The notes beneath the pieces were generated by a model, which did not search any database, was not told the DNA's origin, and was given only the letters and a program-made list of their open reading frames with translations. Shown in pieces: positions 31,251-43,023 of a stretch of 64,000 bases of DNA. Within the stretch, counting starts at the first letter, position 1; each line of letters begins with the position of its first letter. The stretch comes from Pseudoalteromonas shioyasakiensis (GTDB lineage Bacteria > Pseudomonadota > Gammaproteobacteria > Enterobacterales > Alteromonadaceae), in assembly GCA_013391845.1 (NCBI GenBank), contig CP058414.1, forward strand, positions 2,032,501 through 2,096,500, written 5' to 3'. The position numbers were made by a program, and so were the translations under genes.

Positions 31251-33741
31251 ATTAGCACTAAAACTGTTTTCACGTGAGTTTAAACGCGGTGAGTTAACAG
31301 TGATAAGTGCAGCAATTGCCTTAGCTGTTCTCACTGTTTTAACACTGTCTATGGTTACCGACCGAATTGGTCAAAGTATTGAAGAAAAAAGCAGTGCCTT
31401 TATTGCTGCTGATCGCGTTTTAGCAAGTAACCATGCTTTACCTGCCGAGTTTTTAGAAAAAGCCAACCAAGAAAACTTACGTACCGCTAAAATAACCTAT
31501 TTCGATACCATGTTATTTGCTGGTGACGAAATGCAGCTTGGCTCGGTGAAAGCGGTATCAAACACCTATCCGTTAAAAGGCGAGTTAAAAGTAAAAACTA
31601 GCCTGACTGATCAACCACAAGTAACTGCTGATATCCCAAGTCGTGGTGAAGTGTGGTTAAGTGAATCAGTGTTTTATGCGTTAAACATTAAAGTGGGCGA
31701 TAAAGTAGAGCTTGGCGCTGCTACGTTTACTGCTAGTCATGTTGTAGCCGAAGAGCCTGATGCACCGTTTAATGTGTTTTCAAGCAGCCAGCGAATCTTA
31801 ATTAATGAAGCAGACATAGCTGTTACAGAGGTAATTCAGCCGGGTAGTCGAGTGTTTTATCGTCAGCTTTATGCTGGCAGCAAAGACAATTTAGATACCT
31901 TCTATGCGTGGTTAAAACCACAAATGAAAGAAAACCAGCGTTGGTATGGTGTTAAAGACCGCCAGTCTCCTATTTCTAATAGTTTAAATCGTGCCGAGAG
32001 TTATCTATTGCTAGCAGGTTTACTTGGCATTATTTTAGCCGCTGTTGCTATTGCGGTATCGGCAAAACGGTATTGTGAGCGTCAATATGACCCGGTTGCC
32101 ATGATGAAAACGCTGGGCGGAAGCCGCGCTATGATACGTAAAATCTATTTACTTCACTTGAGCCTTGTTTGTTCAATGTCGGTCATAGTTGGTTTACTGA
32201 TTGGTTATGGCTTACAAGCAGTTGCAACAGATTATTTAGCACAAACCATGGGCACAGCACTACCAAGTGCATCTGCTAAACCGTGGATTATTGCTATTAG
32301 TACCGGCGTGATTTGTGCGGTAATGTTTTCTATTAAACCACTTCTCGATTTATTTGATATTCCTCCGCTGCGCGTGCTTCGCCGTAATTTAGGCGACCGT
32401 TTATTGGTTAGTAAAGTGCACTTGGCTATGTCGGCGCTTACTGTGTTTTTACTCATGTGGTTATTTAGTAATAACATCAAAATAAGTGCCATTTTGTTTC
32501 TTTCAACTGCATTTTTAATTGCGGTGTTATTTGCTTTATCAAAGGTTATTTTTGGCGGTGGTCGCAAACTCGGTTTAAGCCCAGGTAATAGTTGGTCATT
32601 GGCGATAGCATCAATTCAAAAGCGTGCCAACGTTAATGCCGTACAATTAATTAGCTTTGCATTGGCTATAAAATTGTTATTGTTTTTAATTGTATTGAAG
32701 AACGACATGATCTCGGATTGGCAGTCACAGCTTCCAGAAAATGCACCTAATTCATTTTTAGTGAACATTACTGAGCAAGAACTAGAACCTATTACTAGTT
32801 TCTTAGCGCAAAATGATATGCCAACGTCTGATTTTTACCCGGTTGTTCGTGGCCGTGTAAACGCCGTTAATGGTGAGCTGGTTGCCCGCGAAGTATCGCA
32901 AGAAGATAACGAAAAGAAAGACGAAGAAGCTCGCTCTGGCATTGGCCGTGAGCTAAATCTAACTTGGCGCAAGGACTTGCCAAATCAAAACGAGCTTATC
33001 GACGGTACATGGTTTAGTGAAAACTCAGTGGCTGAGGCATCGGTTGAAGAGTCTATGCTTAAACGCTTAGATGTAAAAATAGGTGATACGCTTACTTTCT
33101 TAATAGGTGCACAGTCTTTCGATGCAAAAATTACCAGTGTTCGAAAAGTTAACTGGACGACACTCAAACCTAACTTCTTTATTATTTTAAGTCCTGATGT
33201 GCTAGCCAGTTTTCCTGCTACTTATATTTCATCAGTAAATGTTAAAGCAGAGAAAAAACGTGAGTTTAATGAGCTAATGCGTCAATACCCAACGGTTAAC
33301 GTGATAGATGTTGAGAGCTTTATTAAACAAATTCGCTCAACCATAGAGCAAGTATCGTTAGCGATTGGTTTTGTACTAGCGATTGTGGTTGCCTGTGGCG
33401 CTTTAGTACTTATTTCGCAAGTACAAGCAAGTTTGGGGGAGCGAATGCAAGAGATTGTCATCTTAAGAACTTTAGGTGCTAAAGGGCGTTTAATTAAAAA
33501 TGCCACCTTATATGAGTTTTTACTATTAGGGGTTACGGCAGGCTTAGTGGCTGCCATTGTCAGTGACATCGCTCTGTTGATAGTACAAAAACAAATGTTC
33601 GATTTAGCTGGTAAATTCCATCCTCATATTTGGGTCATTGGCCCAGCAGTAGGAGGCTTATTTGTGGCATGTTTGGGTTATTTGATGATAGCGCGCACAA
33701 TGCGAAAAAATACCCAAGGCTTATTACGCTCACTGGCATAA
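31240..33741 (+). CDS. ybbP: FtsX-family ABC permease YbbP
   Basis: The 833-residue protein has one N-terminal membrane helix, a large periplasmic region, and FtsX permease modules around residues 250-360 (LLLAGLLGIILAAVAIAVSAKRY) and at the C-terminus (about 690-825), with central helices near 390-440. This is the YbbP layout: a 10-helix permease working with YbbA. It overlaps ybbA by 11 bp. A role in envelope lipid or esterase-product handling is suggested only by the tesA neighbour. Confidence 0.9.
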   Translation: MWAKLALKLFSREFKRGELTVISAAIALAVLTVLTLSMVTDRIGQSIEEKSSAFIAADRVLASNHALPAEFLEKANQENLRTAKITYFDTMLFAGDEMQLGSVKAVSNTYPLKGELKVKTSLTDQPQVTADIPSRGEVWLSESVFYALNIKVGDKVELGAATFTASHVVAEEPDAPFNVFSSSQRILINEADIAVTEVIQPGSRVFYRQLYAGSKDNLDTFYAWLKPQMKENQRWYGVKDRQSPISNSLNRAESYLLLAGLLGIILAAVAIAVSAKRYCERQYDPVAMMKTLGGSRAMIRKIYLLHLSLVCSMSVIVGLLIGYGLQAVATDYLAQTMGTALPSASAKPWIIAISTGVICAVMFSIKPLLDLFDIPPLRVLRRNLGDRLLVSKVHLAMSALTVFLLMWLFSNNIKISAILFLSTAFLIAVLFALSKVIFGGGRKLGLSPGNSWSLAIASIQKRANVNAVQLISFALAIKLLLFLIVLKNDMISDWQSQLPENAPNSFLVNITEQELEPITSFLAQNDMPTSDFYPVVRGRVNAVNGELVAREVSQEDNEKKDEEARSGIGRELNLTWRKDLPNQNELIDGTWFSENSVAEASVEESMLKRLDVKIGDTLTFLIGAQSFDAKITSVRKVNWTTLKPNFFIILSPDVLASFPATYISSVNVKAEKKREFNELMRQYPTVNVIDVESFIKQIRSTIEQVSLAIGFVLAIVVACGALVLISQVQASLGERMQEIVILRTLGAKGRLIKNATLYEFLLLGVTAGLVAAIVSDIALLIVQKQMFDLAGKFHPHIWVIGPAVGGLFVACLGYLMIARTMRKNTQGLLRSLA

Positions 33742-33766
33742 GATTCTAACTAAAAACGTGTTTATA

Positions 33767-33793
33767 AAATGCTCGCAATTGCGGGCATTTTTT
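33767..33793 (+). terminator. Intrinsic terminator after ybbP
   Basis: AAATGCTCGC and GCGGGCATTT pair around AATT with one G-T wobble, followed by a T-run, 26 bases after the ybbP stop codon. Confidence 0.85.
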
Positions 33794-33878
33794 ATGAATC
33801 GCAATTGGTTACTGGTAATTTATACAGTGCTCTGGCATTATTAACACAGATAATAATGATAATAGATGGGTCAGTTAG

Positions 33879-34403
33879 TTGGCGATTATTTTAGGGATTG
33901 ATCCTGGTTCACGGTTAACAGGGTACGGCGTGATTGCTCACCAAGGTGCTAAGTTCACTTATTTAGGAAGTGGTTGCATAAAATTGGCAGATCACGATTT
34001 TCCTGTTCGTTTAAAAATGATTTACCAAGGGATCAGTCAATTGGTAGAGCAATTCTCCCCAGACAGCTTTGCTATCGAAAAAGTGTTTATGGCACATAAC
34101 CCTGATTCGGCACTTAAACTTGGTCAAGCTCGTGGCGCTGCCATTGTTGGCGCTTCAATGGCTGAGCTGCCAGTTTATGAATATTCAGCAAGGCAAATCA
34201 AGCAAGCTGTTGTGGGTAATGGCGGAGCCGATAAGTCTCAAGTACAGCATATGGTAAAGAATATTTTAAAGCTGCCTGGCACACCTCAAGCCGATGCCGC
34301 TGACGCTCTAGCAATTGCTATATGTCATGCACACTCAGAACAAAATTTAATTAAACTTGCGGGCAGTGCGAGCAAAACCGTAAGAGGACGATTAAGGAAG
34401 TAA
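33879..34403 (+). CDS. ruvC: Holliday junction endonuclease RuvC
   Basis: The 174-residue protein has the four RuvC acidic residues in [33 protein letters not shown], and [16 protein letters not shown]. It cuts Holliday junctions brought by RuvAB. The start is TTG at 33879, the only start giving the family N-terminus [10 protein letters not shown]; the ribosome site is weak, so expression may be low. ruvA begins one base after its stop codon. Confidence 0.95.
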
Positions 34404-34404
34404 T

Positions 34405-35025
34405 ATGATTGGTCGATTAAATGGCTTACTTGTTGAAAAACAGCCGCCAGAAATTCTCATTGAAGTAAGTGGTGTAGGCTACGAAGTGCAAATGCCTATG
34501 ACCTGCTTTTATGATTTACCCGCAGTAGGTGAGCAAGCGATTATTTATACCCATTTTGTGGTACGTGAAGATGCCCAGCTATTATTTGGTTTTAACAATA
34601 AAACAGAGCGCGCTTTATTTAGAGAGCTATTAAAGGCTAATGGCGTAGGGCCAAAGTTAGGTCTTGCGATTTTATCGGGTATGTCAGCACAGCAATTTGT
34701 AAGTTGTGTAAACAATGAAGATGCAACCACACTGGTTAAACTTCCGGGGGTTGGTAAAAAAACTGCTGAGCGCTTAGTACTCGAAATGAAAGACAGACTG
34801 AAAGATTGGGGTAATGACTTATTTACACCATTTAGCGATAATGCCGTCATTGAGCCTGCAAGTGATGATACCCTAGTGGCAAATAATGCTGCCGATGATG
34901 CAGTGTCTGCACTTGTTGCGTTAGGTTATAAGCTACCGCAAGCACAAAAAGCGGTGAAAGCAGTGAACAAACCAGATATGACGACAGAGGTTCTAATTAA
35001 AGAAGCTCTAAAATCAATGTTGTGA
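34405..35025 (+). CDS. ruvA: Holliday junction DNA helicase subunit RuvA
   Basis: The 206-residue protein starts [17 protein letters not shown] and has an OB fold (about 1-64), two helix-hairpin-helix motifs ([14 protein letters not shown] near 73 and [17 protein letters not shown] near 108) and the mobile C-terminal domain III (about 155-205) that contacts RuvB. It binds the four-way junction as a tetramer. AGGAAGTAAT upstream is a clear ribosome site. It lies between ruvC and ruvB in one operon. Confidence 0.97.
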
Positions 35026-35032
35026 GTAAACC

Positions 35033-36037
35033 ATGATAGAAGCAGATCGCTTAATAGATGCGAGTGAACAAAGTAACGAAGACAGTGTTGATCGTGCCAT
35101 ACGGCCAAAACTGTTAACAGATTACACTGGCCAGCCGCATGTTAAGCAACAAATGGAAATATTTATCGAGGCGGCTCGCCATCGTGGCGAAGCCCTGGAT
35201 CACCTATTAATATTTGGTCCACCGGGTCTTGGTAAAACCACACTTGCAAACATTGTTGCCAACGAGCTTAACGTTAATATTAAAACAACGTCAGGGCCAG
35301 TACTCGAAAAAGCTGGCGATTTAGCTGCTCTTTTAACTAACCTTGAAGAAGGTGACGTACTGTTTATTGACGAAATTCACCGCTTGAGCCCGCAGGTGGA
35401 AGAGATTTTGTATCCAGCAATGGAAGACTATCAGCTGGATATTATGATCGGTGAGGGCCCAGCCGCACGTTCAATTAAACTTGATTTACCGCCATTTACT
35501 TTAATAGGTGCGACAACCCGTGCAGGTTCACTCACCTCACCACTGAGAGACCGTTTTGGCATAGTGCAGCGTTTAGAATTTTATTCGGTTGAAGATTTAT
35601 CAAAAATAGTTGCTCGTTCAGCAAGATTTTTAGATTTAACTATGTGCAATGAAGGAGCCACAGAAATAGCCAAGCGCTCACGTGGCACACCGCGAATAGC
35701 GAACCGTTTGTTACGCCGTGTTCGTGATTACACGCAAGTTAAATCTGACGGTAAAGTTAACGCATCGGTTGCAGAGCAAGCCCTCGATATGATTGATGTC
35801 GATAAAAGCGGTTTTGACTACATGGATAGAAAATACCTATTAGCTATTATCGAAAAATTTATGGGCGGCCCAGTTGGCCTTGATAACCTTGCAGCTGCAA
35901 TAGGCGAAGAAAAAGAAACGATAGAAGATGTAATAGAACCGTTTTTAATTCAACAAGGCTTTATACAACGTACCCCGCGCGGACGACTTGTATCAGACAT
36001 CGCTTACTTGCACTTTGGACTAACCCCAGATAAATAA
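35033..36037 (+). CDS. ruvB: Holliday junction DNA helicase motor RuvB
   Basis: The 334-residue AAA+ protein has the RuvB start (MIEADRLI), Walker [16 protein letters not shown] near residue 62, Walker [11 protein letters not shown] near 110, sensor GATTRAGSL near 161 and a C-terminal winged helix ([14 protein letters not shown]). It drives branch migration with RuvA. It is the last gene of ruvCAB and is followed by a hairpin terminator. Confidence 0.97.
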
Positions 36038-36080
36038 CAAAACTCAGGTTAGTTACAAAAGCTTTAAGTTATAAGTATTA

Positions 36081-36106
36081 AGCAGCTCGAGAGGGCTGCT
36101 TTTTAA
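36081..36106 (+). terminator. Terminator after ruvB
   Basis: AGCAGC and GCTGCT pair around an 8-base loop, followed by TTTT, 44 bases after the ruvB stop codon. Confidence 0.7.
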
Positions 36107-36145
36107 TAGAGATAAGTTGACTTTTTAAATGGCAATATAGATTTT

Positions 36146-36212
36146 ACCGCATACCGCATACCGCATACCGCATACCGCATACCGCATACCGCATACCGCA
36201 TACCGCATACCG
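36146..36212. repeat. 7-bp tandem repeat, nine full copies plus a partial
   Basis: ACCGCAT is repeated exactly nine times (36146-36208), followed by a partial tenth unit that breaks to ACCGG. There is no divergence between units, so it is young or actively homogenised by slippage. It lies outside any gene. Confidence 0.95.
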
Positions 36213-36288
36213 GCAAGAGTCATCTAACACCTGTAATTCACATGCTGTTAAGTTTTTGATAGGTATTCTCGTTGACGTTTGCGCAGGC

Positions 36289-36468
36289 AAAAAAAAGCCC
36301 GCATAAGGATGCGGGCAAACAACAAGTTGAAGGAAGTAATTCAGGGAACTACGGTCTACTAAAAGAAGGTTTTATCCTGATTTCAGTAAACCTAGAGCAA
36401 TACGAAACTTCATATTGCTAAAAACGGAGCTTAATGAAAGAAACTTTCATGAGGTTGCTAGCTCGGTA
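36289..36468 (-). ncRNA. Candidate structured small RNA
   Basis: On the minus strand a promoter at 36476-36504 is followed after about 180 nt by a textbook intrinsic terminator (stem 36297-36316, eight U at 36289-36296). Three more stem-loops lie between: 36434-36450 (7-bp perfect stem), 36397-36418 (GCAATA/TATTGC extended) and 36368-36392 (GGTTT/AAACC with an inner CTGA/TCAG). No minus-strand gene exists from ruvB to tolQ to explain the terminator. Two very short frames inside (10 and 13 codons) lack ribosome sites, so I favour a non-coding RNA. It does not match an RNA family I recognise; expression is unproven. Confidence 0.6.
36297..36316 (-). terminator. Orphan minus-strand intrinsic terminator
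   Basis: GCCCGCAT and ATGCGGGC form a perfect 8-bp GC-rich stem with an AAGG loop; on the minus strand eight T follow immediately, while the plus side has none. It therefore serves a leftward transcript. Confidence 0.85.
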
Positions 36469-36475
36469 TAGGTAA

Positions 36476-36504
36476 ATAATACGCAATGATGGATTTTTCT
36501 TCAA
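36476..36504 (-). promoter_or_regulatory. Minus-strand sigma-70 type promoter of the candidate small RNA
   Basis: Read on the minus strand, TTGAAG (36499-36504) and TATTAT (36476-36481) are exactly 17 bases apart. Predicted transcription starts near 36468. Confidence 0.55.
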
Positions 36505-36997
36505 ACTAGAAAAATTTAATTTTCAGATTAAAAAAACTAATGTGAGCAAAAAATTCTATTGTTTTCTTTTTGTTCGCTTTGTGGTTATTTTCTCTTTAAC
36601 TGCATGAATAGAGTGGTTTTTATAAAATTCATATTCTGTATTCAGGATTAGTTTAAGTATTCTGTAGTAGATTTGCAAAAGTACTTTTGGGTGTTTATGC
36701 GTAATTTATGAATAAACGTCATGTTTTTGATTGTTTTGGTTGCTTTTAAGCGTCACTCTAGTGACTTATTATTAAGGTAAAAATATGCATAAAAGTATTT
36801 GTAAAATTCAATCTGGCTAAAAAATAACTAAGCAAATTGCTTTTTACCGTTATTTGCCGCTAATTCACAGCAAGAGCGTTGTCAGTTCATAATTGACTAG
36901 ATACACTAGTTGTAACTTTTGGCCATGTTTGTGGTCAATAAATACAAGTGTAAAAAATATAACAAATTACATAGAAATCTATTTTTAGGAGTTTAAC

Positions 36998-37702
36998 GTG
37001 GGATCAGGGCTTAACTTTTTAGATCTTATTCTAGAAGCCAGTGTACTTGTCCAGCTAGTAATGTTGGCATTAGTCGGCATGTCGGTAATGTCATGGGCAA
37101 TTATTTTTCAACGTAAAAAAGCGATTTCTGATGCACTTAATGGCGCTAAGCGCTTTGAGCAAAAGTTTTGGTCAGGAATAGACTTAAGTAAATTATATAA
37201 TGAAGTTTCAGCTCGTCCTGGTGGCGCATCAGGTGTTGAAGCATTATTCGTTGCTGGTTTTAAGGAGTTTGCACGACATAAGAAAAATTCACCGCAAAGT
37301 GCAAGCATAGTAATGGAAGGCACACATCGTTCAATGCGTGTTGCGTTGTCACGCGAAGTTGAAAAACTAGAATCAAGTTTATCGTTTTTAGCGACAGTGG
37401 GTTCAATTAGTCCTTATATCGGCCTTTTTGGTACGGTGTGGGGTATCATGAACGCATTCATTGCATTAGGTGAAGTTAAGCAAGCAACTTTACAAATGGT
37501 TGCGCCGGGTATCGCCGAAGCACTTATCGCAACAGCGATGGGTTTATTCGCAGCAATCCCTGCAGTTATTGCGTACAACCGTTTTGCAAATAAAGTAGAA
37601 AAGCTTGAAGGTAATTACATTAACTTCATGGAAGAGTTCGCCAATATTTTACACCGCCAAGCAGCTGCGCAAATAGAGGCTAAAGCGAATGTATCAGCGT
37701 AA
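36998..37702 (+). CDS. tolQ: Tol-Pal system protein TolQ
   Basis: The 234-residue protein is a TolQ/ExbB/MotA-type proton channel subunit with three membrane helices (about residues 18-38, 135-160, 170-195). It has the motif [20 protein letters not shown] near 131 and [22 protein letters not shown] near 168. It starts at GTG 36998 with AGGAG 6 bases upstream. It energises TolA with TolR during envelope constriction. It overlaps tolR by 14 bp. Confidence 0.95.
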
Positions 37703-38114
37703 GAAACGTCGCCCAGTAGGTGAGATAAATGTAGTTCCTTACATTGATGTAATGTTGGTACTACTTATTATATTTATGGCAACTGCACCACTGATTACTC
37801 ATGGTGTAAAAGTGGACTTGCCGAAAATGGAAGAATCGGATCTTGTAGATACCAAAGATACACCACCTATCATTGCATCAATTGATGCTGAAGGTAAGTA
37901 CTATGTAAGTATCGGCACTGATCCAGAAGCTCCTATGGAAGCAATTGATGTAGCTGCTGTTATAAAATTACAACTTCAGAAAAACCCCGATACTCCGGTT
38001 ATGATAAAAGGTTCTGGTCGTGTTTCTTATCAAGAAGTGTTGCTGTTAATGGACTTTTTGAAAAATGCCGGTGTGCCTTCTGTGGGTCTTATGACTGAGT
38101 CATTTGAGGGTTAG
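37689..38114 (+). CDS. tolR: Tol-Pal system protein TolR
   Basis: The 141-residue ExbD/TolR-type protein has a single membrane helix (about residues 15-37) with the proton-conducting Asp in [20 protein letters not shown], followed by the periplasmic TolR domain ending [10 protein letters not shown]. It works with TolQ to harness the proton gradient. Its start lies inside the end of tolQ and tolA follows immediately. Confidence 0.95.
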
Positions 38115-38115
38115 T

Positions 38116-39054
38116 ATGCGTGAATCAGTAATAAAGTCGCTTCTATTGCACCTTGGTATTATTGTTTTCTTAGTCGTATCAGCGAACTTTCATATGCCAG
38201 CTCCTAAGGTAATGGAAGTGACATTGAATCCGGCTATGCCTGAACCAGAAAAAGCGGTTTCTGCAGTAACGGTTGATCAACAAAAGGTTGAGCAGAAAAT
38301 TGCTGAACTTAAAAAGCAAGAAGAAGCAAAAAAACAAGCCGAAGCAAAGCGAATTCGAGATCTTGAACGTCGTGCAAATGACGCACGTAAGCAACGCGAA
38401 GCTGAAGACCGTCGTCTTAAAAAGTTAGAGCAACAACGCCGAGCGAAAGAGAAAGAAAAAGCAGAAGCTGAAGCACAAGCGAAGAAAGCACGTGAAATAC
38501 AAGAGAAAGAACGTGCCAAAGCTAAGCAAGCTGAAAAGCAAAAGCAAGAAGCTGAAGCCGCAGCAAAAGCCGCAGCTGAAAAACGTAAAGCTGAAGAAGA
38601 GGCGTTAAAGAAAGCGGAAGCAGAGCGCAAGCGTAAAGCTGCTGAAGCTGAAGCTGAGCGTAAACGTAAAGAAGCTGAAGCAGAGCGTAAACGTCAGCAG
38701 GCATTGCAAGAACAAATGCTGCAAGAGCAGTTAGCTGCTGAGCAGGCTGCACGAAATAAAATACGTCAGCAACAAGTCTTGAGTGAAGTTGATAAATATA
38801 AAGCGTTAATTATGGCGCGTATTCAACAAACTTTACTTATTGATGAAAAAATGAAGAATAAGCAATGTCGCGTTAATATTCGCCTTGGTTTTAACGGGTT
38901 AGTAACTCAAGTAAAATCACTTGGTGGTGATAAATTAGTGTGTGAAGCTGCTCTTCGTGCTGTCCGTATGGCCGATACACTACCAGTTTCGCCTGATAAA
39001 GATGTTTTCGAGCAACTGAAAAATATTAACTTAACAATTAAGCCAGAATTCTAA
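38116..39054 (+). CDS. tolA: Tol-Pal system protein TolA
   Basis: I place the start at ATG 38116 (312 residues), one base after the tolR stop and 6 bases after GAGG, rather than a TTG at 38104. It has an N-terminal membrane anchor (about residues 7-25), a very long Lys/Glu/Ala-rich helical domain (about 50-215) and a C-terminal TolA III domain (about 220-312) with CRVNIRLGFNGLVTQVKSLGG. TolA spans the periplasm and contacts Pal and TolB. Confidence 0.93.
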   Translation: MRESVIKSLLLHLGIIVFLVVSANFHMPAPKVMEVTLNPAMPEPEKAVSAVTVDQQKVEQKIAELKKQEEAKKQAEAKRIRDLERRANDARKQREAEDRRLKKLEQQRRAKEKEKAEAEAQAKKAREIQEKERAKAKQAEKQKQEAEAAAKAAAEKRKAEEEALKKAEAERKRKAAEAEAERKRKEAEAERKRQQALQEQMLQEQLAAEQAARNKIRQQQVLSEVDKYKALIMARIQQTLLIDEKMKNKQCRVNIRLGFNGLVTQVKSLGGDKLVCEAALRAVRMADTLPVSPDKDVFEQLKNINLTIKPEF

Positions 39055-39063
39055 AGGAATGAT

Positions 39064-40422
39064 ATGTTCAACCAGATAAAAACAGCATGTTTTATTGTAT
39101 TACTGGGCTTTCATGGCATTGCCAGTGCTGCACTAGAAATTGTTATCACTGAAGGTATTGATGGAGCACGCCCAATAGCGGTTGTTCCATTTAAATACCA
39201 GGGCGTTGGTCCCATCCCTGAAAAATTGAGCACCGTTATTGCAGCTGATTTGATGCGTAGTGGTAAATTTAAACCTATTGATGTGACAAGTATGCCTCAA
39301 TTACCCGGCAAAGATGCTGATGTAGATTATGGTGCATGGGTCAATCAAGGTGTTGAAGCGGTACTTGTTGGTCAAGTTGAGCAACAACCGGGTGGACGTT
39401 ACTTAGTAAAGTATGAGCTTATCGATGTGATCCGTGGTCAAATTACAGGCGGCGAAACGCAAATGATGAGTAATGGTCAATTAGTGAAGAGCCAGGACCA
39501 TGTATTAGATGCTCGTGAGAGTGTTATATCTGAAACAGGGTTTCGCCGTTATGCGCACCGTATTAGCGATGTAGTTTACGAAGCGCTTACGGGTGAAAAA
39601 GGTGCATTTTTAACAAAAATTGCTTACGTTATTGTACGTGATAATGAACCGAAGCCTTATCAACTCGTTGTTGCTGACTATGATGGCTACAATGAGCAAG
39701 TATTGCTTCGTTCTAAAGAGCCACTTATGTCCCCAGCTTGGTCACCAGATGGTACTAAGCTTGCGTATGTAACCTTTGAAAATCGTCAAAGCCAAATTTA
39801 CATTCAAGATTTGTATACGGGCAAACGTGAGTTAATCACAAGCCATCCAGGTATTAATGGTGCACCACAGTTTTCACCTGATGGAAAAAAACTATTATTA
39901 GTACTTTCAAAAGACCGTAACGGTGCAACAGAAGTCTATGTTTTAGACCTTGCAACTCGCAAAGAAAAGCGTTTAACAAATCATCGTAGTATCGATACAG
40001 AGCCTTCTTGGTACCCAAATGGGCAAGATATCGTGTTTACGTCTGAAAGGGGTGGTAATGCCCAGATTTATAAGTTAAATTTGCAAACTGGTAGAGCAAA
40101 ACGTATGACGTTTGATGGTGATATGAATTTAGCAGGTTCGATTTCACCAGACGGAAAAGAATTAGTGATGGTGAATCGTACTAACGGTCAATACCATCTT
40201 GCTAAAAAAGAGCTAGCTACAGGTGCGTTTCAAGTATTAACAAGAACTCGCCTAGATGAATCGCCGAGTATCGCTCCAAACGGTTCGATGATTATCTACA
40301 GCACGCTTCATAATAATAAACAGGTGTTGGCGTTAGTGTCTATGGACGGTCGCTTTAAAGCTCGCTTACCTGTGCTAGATGGACAAGTTAAGGCGCCAGC
40401 TTGGTCGCCTTATTTACAGTAA
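39064..40422 (+). CDS. tolB: Tol-Pal system periplasmic protein TolB
   Basis: The 452-residue protein has a signal peptide (about residues 1-23, cleaved after ASAA), an N-terminal alpha/beta domain (to about 165) and a six-bladed beta-propeller of WD40-like repeats such as [18 protein letters not shown] and [17 protein letters not shown]. TolB binds Pal and the TolA C-terminus. AAAGGAATGAT precedes the ATG. pal follows in the same operon. Confidence 0.96.
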
Positions 40423-41887: not shown

Positions 41888-41938
41888 GCGCCCGCAGCAG
41901 GCGATTGGTAACAACAGCCGAAATGCGGAAAAAAGAGC

Positions 41939-42014
41939 GGGTCATTAGCTCAGTTGGTAGAGCAGTGGACTTTTAATCCATTGGTCGATGGTTCAAGTCC
42001 ATCATGACCCACCA
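41939..42014 (+). tRNA. tRNA-Lys(TTT), copy 1 of 8
   Basis: A 76-nt tRNA with acceptor GGGTCAT/ATGACCC, encoded CCA, and anticodon loop CTTTTAA giving TTT. It is the first of eight identical genes in one direction. Confidence 0.97.
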
Positions 42015-42076
42015 TTCTTTCAGAATGGTAATCTTTAATCGACGGATTTACGTATAGCTTTTAAAAGCATTAGAGC

Positions 42077-42152
42077 GGGTCATTAGCTCAGTTGGTAGAG
42101 CAGTGGACTTTTAATCCATTGGTCGATGGTTCAAGTCCATCATGACCCACCA
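42077..42152 (+). tRNA. tRNA-Lys(TTT), copy 2 of 8
   Basis: Identical in sequence to copy 1. The 62-bp spacer before it holds an ACCATTCTTTcagaATGGT hairpin-like end of the previous unit. Confidence 0.97.
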
Positions 42153-42207
42153 TTCTTTGAATGGTTTTCTATCGGCGGATTTACGTAGCTTTTATAAGCA
42201 TCAGAGC

Positions 42208-42283
42208 GGGTCATTAGCTCAGTTGGTAGAGCAGTGGACTTTTAATCCATTGGTCGATGGTTCAAGTCCATCATGACCCACCA
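42208..42283 (+). tRNA. tRNA-Lys(TTT), copy 3 of 8
   Basis: Identical to copy 1; the 55-bp spacer before it resembles the following spacers (TCGGCGGATTTACG core). Confidence 0.97.
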
Positions 42284-42339
42284 TTCTTTGAATGGCTTTA
42301 TATCGGCGGATTTACGCAGCTTTTTATAAGCGTCAGAGC

Positions 42340-42415
42340 GGGTCATTAGCTCAGTTGGTAGAGCAGTGGACTTTTAATCCATTGGTCGATGGTTCAAGTC
42401 CATCATGACCCACCA
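42340..42415 (+). tRNA. tRNA-Lys(TTT), copy 4 of 8
   Basis: Identical to copy 1; preceded by a 56-bp spacer of the same repeated type. Confidence 0.97.
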
Positions 42416-42472
42416 TTCTTTTTGAATGGTCTCATATCGGCGGATTTACGCAGCTTTTATAAGCATCAGAGC

Positions 42473-42548
42473 GGGTCATTAGCTCAGTTGGTAGAGCAGT
42501 GGACTTTTAATCCATTGGTCGATGGTTCAAGTCCATCATGACCCACCA
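42473..42548 (+). tRNA. tRNA-Lys(TTT), copy 5 of 8
   Basis: Identical to copy 1; preceded by a 57-bp spacer of the same repeated type. Confidence 0.97.
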
Positions 42549-42606
42549 TTCTTTTTGAATGGTCTTATATCGGCGGATTTACGCAGCTTTTTATAAGCAA
42601 CAGAGC

Positions 42607-42682
42607 GGGTCATTAGCTCAGTTGGTAGAGCAGTGGACTTTTAATCCATTGGTCGATGGTTCAAGTCCATCATGACCCACCA
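42607..42682 (+). tRNA. tRNA-Lys(TTT), copy 6 of 8
   Basis: Identical to copy 1; preceded by a 58-bp spacer of the same repeated type. Confidence 0.97.
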
Positions 42683-42733
42683 TTCTTCGAATGGTTCTAT
42701 ATCGGCGGATCTACGCACCTTAATATCCAGAGC

Positions 42734-42809
42734 GGGTCATTAGCTCAGTTGGTAGAGCAGTGGACTTTTAATCCATTGGTCGATGGTTCAAGTCCATCAT
42801 GACCCACCA
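42734..42809 (+). tRNA. tRNA-Lys(TTT), copy 7 of 8
   Basis: Identical to copy 1; its 51-bp upstream spacer ends TTAATATCCAGAGC, a variant shared only with the spacer of copy 8. Confidence 0.97.
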
Positions 42810-42862
42810 TTCTTTTTGAATGGTCTCATATCGGCGGATTTACGCATCTTAATATCCAGAGC

Positions 42863-42938
42863 GGGTCATTAGCTCAGTTGGTAGAGCAGTGGACTTTTAA
42901 TCCATTGGTCGATGGTTCAAGTCCATCATGACCCACCA
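42863..42938 (+). tRNA. tRNA-Lys(TTT), copy 8 of 8
   Basis: Identical to copy 1 and the last of the array; its spacer ends like that of copy 7, so the two probably arose from one duplication. Confidence 0.97.
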
Positions 42939-43023
42939 TTCCTGATTTATCTTTTCTTTCTAAGTTATCCTTTATTTATCTTAACAGCACACAGCAATAC
43001 TGTTCTTTAGCTTAAGATTCTCG

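Follow-up and report, generated by a model that had tools for sequence, protein, structure and literature searches.

A conserved, predicted structured small RNA gene with a gcvB-like control region between ruvB and tolQ in Pseudoalteromonas

Introduction

The spacer between ruvB (35033..36037, plus strand) and tolQ (36998..37702, plus strand) of Pseudoalteromonas shioyasakiensis contains a promoter and a terminator on the minus strand, raising the question of whether an RNA gene lies between them and, if so, what controls it and what it might do. A preliminary description of the window (the whole stretch of 64,000 nucleotides that was analysed) had proposed an unannotated structured RNA of approximately 180 nt, belonging to no recognised family and possibly acting on envelope or stress mRNAs.

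Hundreds of predicted sRNAs are described for P. fuliginea in PMC11882849, in the covered parts of which the RNA described here is not named, and 127 chromosomal sRNAs are given for an Alteromonas in a portion of PMC5864184. The terms ruvB, tolQ and gcv are absent from the main texts of PMC5864184 and PMC9927453, and the RNA may sit unnamed in the supplementary sRNA lists of such papers. The literature search found no paper joining GcvB with Alteromonas, or GcvA with a Pseudoalteromonas regulon. Papers naming both GcvB and Pseudoalteromonas were found, none about it by title, and among the matches listed for GcvB, GcvA and Alteromonadales, Alteromonadales was never named.

Signals in the spacer

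The minus strand carries a -35 hexamer, TTGAAG (36499..36504), of which TTGA is kept in the genus alignment, and, after a spacer of 17 nt, a -10 hexamer, TATTAT (36476..36481), which reads TATTAT or TAATAT in most relatives. An intrinsic terminator (36289..36316, minus strand) is formed by the GC-rich 8-bp stem GCCCGCAT-CCTT-ATGCGGGC at 36316-36297 and the eight T at 36296-36289. The promoter and the U8 terminator hairpin of the preliminary description were thus read directly in the sequence. They delimit a predicted sRNA of approximately 182 nt (36289..36470, minus strand; 2068789-2068970 in the genome), its 5' end placed from the -10 box and its 3' end at the U tract.

A consensus scan of both strands from 33000 to 40000 found 16 promoter-like sites compared to 16.4 expected, and 5 terminator-like sites compared to 6.3 expected. 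Bare matches of either kind occur at chance frequency, so the anatomy alone is little proof of a gene. What raises the sRNA gene above chance is its presence, detected by BLAST, in 36 of 36 same-genus genomes (its own included) together with the covariation described below. Minus-strand open reading frames of at least 40 aa in the spacer were found at 36144-36290 (48 aa), which reaches into the RNA by its final two bases, and at 36556-36678 (40 aa). A plus-strand frame of 49 aa (36272-36421) crosses the RNA.

Distribution of the RNA gene

The RNA is adjoined by tolQ in all 36 genus loci and by ruvB in 33; L020, L048 and L050 have no ruvB within the stretch covered. The 36-locus alignment was most conserved in three places, namely the DNA from approximately -73 to the -35 box, the single-stranded stretch near the 3' end, and the terminator. 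TTTTCTAGTTTGA, in the IR2-like region of the promoter, was nearly invariant, the inner motif of hairpin 3, GGATAAAACC, was exact in 23 of 36 rows and the 3' stretch UUACUUCCUUCAACUUGUUGUUU in 31 of 36. The length of the RNA ranged from 151 to 183 nt across the genus. When genomes of named species were searched for exact copies of the 3' core, 84 stretches were returned, and the titles among the 80 matches listed were Pseudoalteromonas, Alteromonas, Lacimicrobium, Planctobacterium and Alteromonadaceae bacterium. Within those 80 loci, which end at 8 kb or at contig ends and limit the flank counts accordingly, ruvB and tolQ were both present in 62, tolQ only in 11 and ruvB only in 7.

At E 0.01 and with stricter filters, at the cost of some weak matches, a covariance model matched 26 of 295 genomes of the order, and 22 of these matches were accepted. 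RyhB reaches 44.7 bits with this model, making its E-values misleading at such a level, and weak matches were accepted only when flanking genes or the promoter box supported them. The accepted loci came from 19 of 24 genomes of the same family (two of the same genus and 17 of 22 others), one genome of family f20 and two of family f15. Within the family, tolQ adjoined the RNA in 19 of 19 loci and ruvB as well in 18; both genes adjoined it in the f20 locus, and neither was present in the stretch covered of the two f15 loci. By inspection, a further family genome (G195, locus L240) also carries the RNA with tolQ adjoining, and with it the RNA is present in at least 18 of the 22 family genomes of other genera.

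The four dropped matches were L070, which is RyhB by Rfam, L080, which we take to be RyhB from its core, and L072 and L079, adjoined by neither ruvB nor tolQ and scoring 9.0 and -0.7, respectively, with the promoter profile described below (L072 has a box with two mismatches, though it was dropped). All four of these genomes contain a GcvB above the cut-off. Matches of approximately 30 nt in other genera (G039 and G050; BLAST E 5e-4) were taken as chance.

Covariation of the predicted stems

The predicted fold of the RNA had an energy of -56.2 kcal/mol (z -6.97), a value as low as which was reached by none of 200 shuffles, and the plus strand of the same stretch gave a z of -5.0. A 5' stem enclosing an inner hairpin is followed by three more hairpins and the terminator. 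When 35 distinct sequences were examined over 29 pairs, cells changed on both sides numbered 115; shuffles gave 32.1 (sd 5.4) and slid partners no more than 32. The covariation score was 0.315 compared to 0.128. Further pair types, in contrast, numbered 42 compared to 38.2, a count reached in 42 of 500 shuffles.

The signal was strong in two hairpins. All 9 pairs of hairpin 2 (36396..36419, minus strand) showed changes on both sides, and 91.7% of its cells were paired; in hairpin 3 (36353..36392, minus strand) such changes occurred at 6 of 7 outer pairs, and 89.8% of cells were paired. The terminator changed on both sides at 2 of 7 pairs with four pairs invariant, and the 5' stem was weak, with pairing in 63.3% of cells. 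Because the 5' stem and hairpin 3 had been selected manually from the same sequences, these figures favour the structure somewhat; RNAalifold alone returned hairpin 2 and the terminator. These findings back, by fold, conservation and covariation in Pseudoalteromonas relatives, the earlier proposal of an unannotated structured RNA with its own promoter and terminator.

The control region resembles that of gcvB

The most conserved DNA of the locus is a GcvA-type box region (36505-36541) that the preliminary description had not mentioned. The consulted section of PMC5002191 describes GcvA sites as ATTAG-n5-CTAAT and places IR1 and IR2 of E. coli gcvB at -65 and -43, respectively; that of PMC3658693 gives the GcvA consensus as T-N11-A with CTAAT. 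The window contains an IR1 box with one mismatch, ATTAGTTTTTTTAAT (36527..36541, minus strand), whose centre lies 64 bp 5' of the assumed RNA start (64-66 bp across the genus), and an IR2-like half box, TTAAATTTTTCTAGT (36505..36519, minus strand), 22 bp from IR1, centred at approximately -42 and abutting the -35 hexamer. At the sequence level, the promoter has boxes of the GcvA type near -65 and -43 as a gcvB promoter does.

A profile was trained on 27 gcvB promoters from other families (f5, f8, f10, f12, f18 and f21). They derive from 30 gcvB loci, of which L225 was left out beforehand as it had no box, and L226 and L242 were without the anchor; the anchor demands ATTAG, so the training set leans to good boxes. 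The site in the spacer ranked first of approximately 128,000 window positions. With the 22-bp profile it scored 29.3 bits compared to 11.7 for the next position, a training mean of 26.0 and at most 14.3 in 20 shuffles. With the 42-bp profile it scored 24.7 compared to 4.8 for the next, far under the training mean of 53.4, and the IR2 half is accordingly less gcvB-like. In each of the 36 genus loci the best same-strand score lay between -64 and -66. It was at least 12.7 bits in 35 of them and 8.8 in L046, where a score of 19.3 bits occurred at another position or on the opposite strand. Four of the 22 order-level loci (L057, L066, L071 and L074) likewise had a higher score at another position in the locus or on the opposite strand.

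The palindrome had no mismatch in 2, one in 14, two in 19 and three in 1 of the 36 genus loci, compared to none in 11, one in 8 and two in 3 of the 22 accepted order-level loci (the own locus included as L056), and none in L240. A box with at most one mismatch was thus present in 19 of 22 accepted loci compared to 2 of 1600 background stretches; chance alone often yields two mismatches (145 of 1600), and the genus palindrome is degenerate. In approximately 9 of the 22 loci the model extends across the promoter, which puts the box nearer to or inside its 5' end (offsets -33 to +27), and the -65 spacing is accordingly stated for the remaining loci.

The regulator and its own promoter

A gcvA gene directly behind the box in f15 was the first clue to the regulator (477.5 bits with NCBIfam GcvA, cut-off 288). 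One close GcvA ortholog was found in each of 12 genomes, with 61-80% identity outside the query genome, and an additional weaker match in G095; one of the 12 orthologs was checked against NCBIfam. A box with at most two mismatches was present within 100 bp 5' of the gcvA start in 10 of 12 genes (no mismatch in 4, one in 4 and two in 2) and absent from L111 and L112, L111 being the one without a box among the three Pseudoalteromonas gcvA genes examined. The gcvA box of G113 came from the pattern search, so only the other 11 of the 12 are independent. The gcvA gene of P. shioyasakiensis (G000:C1:2798699-2799589) lies far from the RNA at 2068789, and just 5' of it there is a weak MicX match (RF01808; L113:2438-2588; 29.2 of 75 bits).

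Of 17 genomes, 3 had a gcvT promoter with a box of at most one mismatch inside 200 bp, and none of the 9 of the genus did, which speaks against a simple scheme. As a separate observation, among nine gcvT leaders of Pseudoalteromonas, five (L252, L253, L255, L257 and L265) share an element, TTATTCCCCCTCATT..AATTGAGGCCACGCCC, located approximately 70-37 bases 5' of gcvT in L252. Rfam at E 0.1 gave no match for the L252 and L255 leaders, and the element is possibly a cis-regulatory leader.

The RNA lacks the hallmark sequence of GcvB

The Rfam search returned nothing at curated cut-offs, in agreement with the earlier failure to recognise a family. The GcvB model (RF00022, cut-off 42 bits) reached 23.9 bits in the window and at most 28.8 bits (L240) at the loci of 19 relatives. 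None of the 24 family genomes and none of the 22 carriers of the RNA gave a score above the cut-off, compared to 72 of 295 genomes of the order. The R1 seed core, UGUUGUGUUUGC, was exact in 0 of 57 RNAs (36 of the genus and 21 others, L055 left out) compared to 30 of 30 bona fide gcvB taken from the 72 over the cut-off, and was present with two mismatches in 12 of the 57; CCUGUCUGUC was exact in 0 of 57 compared to 21 of 30, respectively. Other Rfam matches were likewise below their cut-offs (RprA, 29.5 of 70 bits; suhB, 26.3 of 41; anti-hemB, 24.9 of 49.5; RyhB, 16.6 of 55), and the weak matches aligned best over the terminator. A GcvB-model match of 27.3 bits elsewhere in the genome was rejected, as it consists of a gene end (lysS by eye) and its terminator.

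GcvB and the RNA described here have in common the boxes of the GcvA type near -65 and -43, a length of approximately 150-210 nt, hairpins, a U-tailed terminator and a GcvA ortholog in the genome. In contrast, gcvB is divergent from and adjoins gcvA, and GcvB carries a GU-rich R1 seed, while the RNA here is not near gcvA, has no R1 and exposes another single-stranded region. By sequence criteria the RNA itself does not appear to be GcvB; its control region looks GcvB-like. A GcvB-like promoter before an RNA without the GcvB hallmark suggests a different RNA run from the same switch.

FnrS, CyaR and similar Hfq sRNAs have a CUUCC-like seed and FNR and CRP promoters. They likewise expose a CUUCC-type stretch 5' of the terminator, and are absent from the Rfam matches of the RNA here. 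The Csr sRNAs Pf1-Pf3 of P. fuliginea are intergenic RNAs of the same genus with 9-25 GGA motifs, according to the covered part of PMC11882849, compared to one GGA (by eye) in 182 nt here.

One f15 locus, L224 (G049:C3:266092-266235), scored 38.2 bits with the GcvB model, just under the cut-off, and had no gcvA in the stretch covered and no GcvA box by eye; two relatives in its genus carry the RNA described here.

Presumed pairing region and target scans

The stretch UUACUUCCUUCAACUUGUUGUUU (36317..36339, minus strand), unpaired in the predicted fold except for its first four bases, is part anti-Shine-Dalgarno-like and part GU-rich, and is presumed to be the natural pairing region. Its second half differs in genera g31 and g32 (L065, L068 and L074), leaving the CUUCCUUC-like part the steadier. 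The genome encodes hfq (103 bits) and the RNA has a long U8 tail, as would be expected of an Hfq-dependent trans-acting sRNA.

The target scans were partial and covered a small part of the genome, and none of the targets found in them is convincing. A scan of 400 kb in three species, over 138 genes with an ortholog (from 330 open reading frames called in the own 400-kb stretch), gave a mean z of -0.18 and no enrichment. Pairing was not striking for OppA-like genes (one per genome in 5 genomes, E 1e-20), whose start is seemingly close behind another gene, nor for the 11 SDF transporters examined across 4 genomes. The own genome contains 105 near-complementary sites compared to 89 for the reversed pattern, and 30 of these loci were examined. 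Slightly outstanding among the 30 were a chemoreceptor-like start region (L280) and the N-terminus of a putative secreted peptidase (by eye; L282, G000:C1:1038069-1038084), whose first codons have two mismatches to the complement of the RNA; this complementarity may be due to chance. Two-species candidates among the top matches of the 400-kb scan were G000_81 (z -3.2) and G000_107, TonB-receptor-like by eye, with start-region pairing of -16.7 and -16.8 (z -3.15). The candidate ruvA (z -2.9) was rejected because its pairing is not conserved.

Proposed role and alternatives

We consider it likely, from comparative sequence analysis, that the spacer holds a GcvA-activated base-pairing sRNA occupying the slot of GcvB. 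A promoter of the gcvB/GcvA kind points to glycine and amino-acid control. In the proposed mechanism, the spacer would be a real sRNA gene at which the LysR-type regulator GcvA would occupy IR1 and IR2, near -65 and -43 respectively, and activate transcription, presumably in response to glycine, as in E. coli. The resulting RNA of approximately 182 nt would end in a U-tailed, Hfq-type terminator, would probably pair through the exposed UUACUUCCUUCAACUUGUUGUUU with ribosome-binding sites of mRNAs, most likely mRNAs for amino-acid or peptide acquisition, and would take the place of GcvB in these families. The uptake role is suggested by the GcvA-type control region and by the GcvB biology published in the sections consulted of PMC9409037 and PMC3658693. 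GcvB itself is a repressor of transport genes for amino acids and peptides. If the RNA is a counterpart of GcvB, it would open a way to study how Pseudoalteromonas and Alteromonas control their use of amino acids and peptides post-transcriptionally, and would be a natural test of a conserved regulator exchanging its RNA partner.

Two origins fit the sequences for such an RNA. A second, unrelated GcvA-activated sRNA may have replaced GcvB in Pseudoalteromonas, Alteromonas and their kin, a tentative but serious possibility under which a glycine-sensing circuit would have been rewired by a swap of its RNA output, with promoter geometry kept and seed and place changed. It is just as conceivable, and just as tentative, that the RNA descends from gcvB as a true ortholog, having left the neighbourhood of gcvA, lost R1 and diverged beyond the reach of Rfam; being one of the two origins, this explanation is compatible with the GcvA-activated sRNA preferred here and its probability overlaps with that reading. 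A 22-nt sequence, CATTAGTTTTTTTTATCTGAAA, is identical in Pseudoalteromonas L002 and the gcvB promoters L238 and L243 (f21), the sizes are similar (151-183 nt in the genus, 149-213 nt for gcvB), the RNA and GcvB have complementary distributions, and CUUCC- and UUCCCUG-like stretches 5' of the terminator are loosely R2-like. Against an ortholog stand the missing R1 core and CCUGUCUGUC, the low RF00022 scores and the preference of the RNA covariance model, which scores RyhB above all 20 GcvB loci given to it.

The remaining explanations place the RNA under another regulator, give it another task or deny it altogether. Control by a different LysR-type regulator with an ATTAG-n5-CTAAT-like site is unlikely. 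LysR proteins generally use T-N11-A sites, and the gcvA genes of L111 and L112 and the gcvT genes of the genus are without the box; however, a profile trained solely on gcvB promoters fits over 22 bp, beyond the palindrome, and the same box stands at gcvA itself in 10 of 12 genomes. Still less probable is the proposed action on envelope or stress mRNAs, here tol-pal or neighbouring ones, as the promoter is of the gcvB/GcvA kind despite the constant presence of tolQ in the genus, and the RNA lies elsewhere in two f15 genomes. In the window species the RNA is predicted to pair strongly with the start region of ruvA (-21.7), but this pairing is weak or gone in many of 56 named loci, and the site lies within the end of ruvC. 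It is most improbable that there is no trans-acting RNA at all and that the signals belong to a small coding gene or merely to a convergent terminator for ruvB. A 10-codon frame begins in hairpin 1 of the window sequence but is broken in relatives (L005 reads ATG AGA TAG), another hairpin with a T run, seen by eye and not in the terminator scan, lies 3' of ruvB near 36080, and the promoter is conserved and the stems covary.

Other features of the neighbourhood

Between ruvB and the RNA there is a perfect 7-bp tandem repeat, TACCGCA, in 9.7 copies (36145-36212). Pseudoalteromonas sp. 0303 (L130) has fewer copies of it, and among 366 loci there was no match in the others outside the own genome; from its sequence it is probably a variable-number repeat. 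Farther along the window, eight tRNA-Lys(TTT) genes with similar spacers form an array at 41934-42941.
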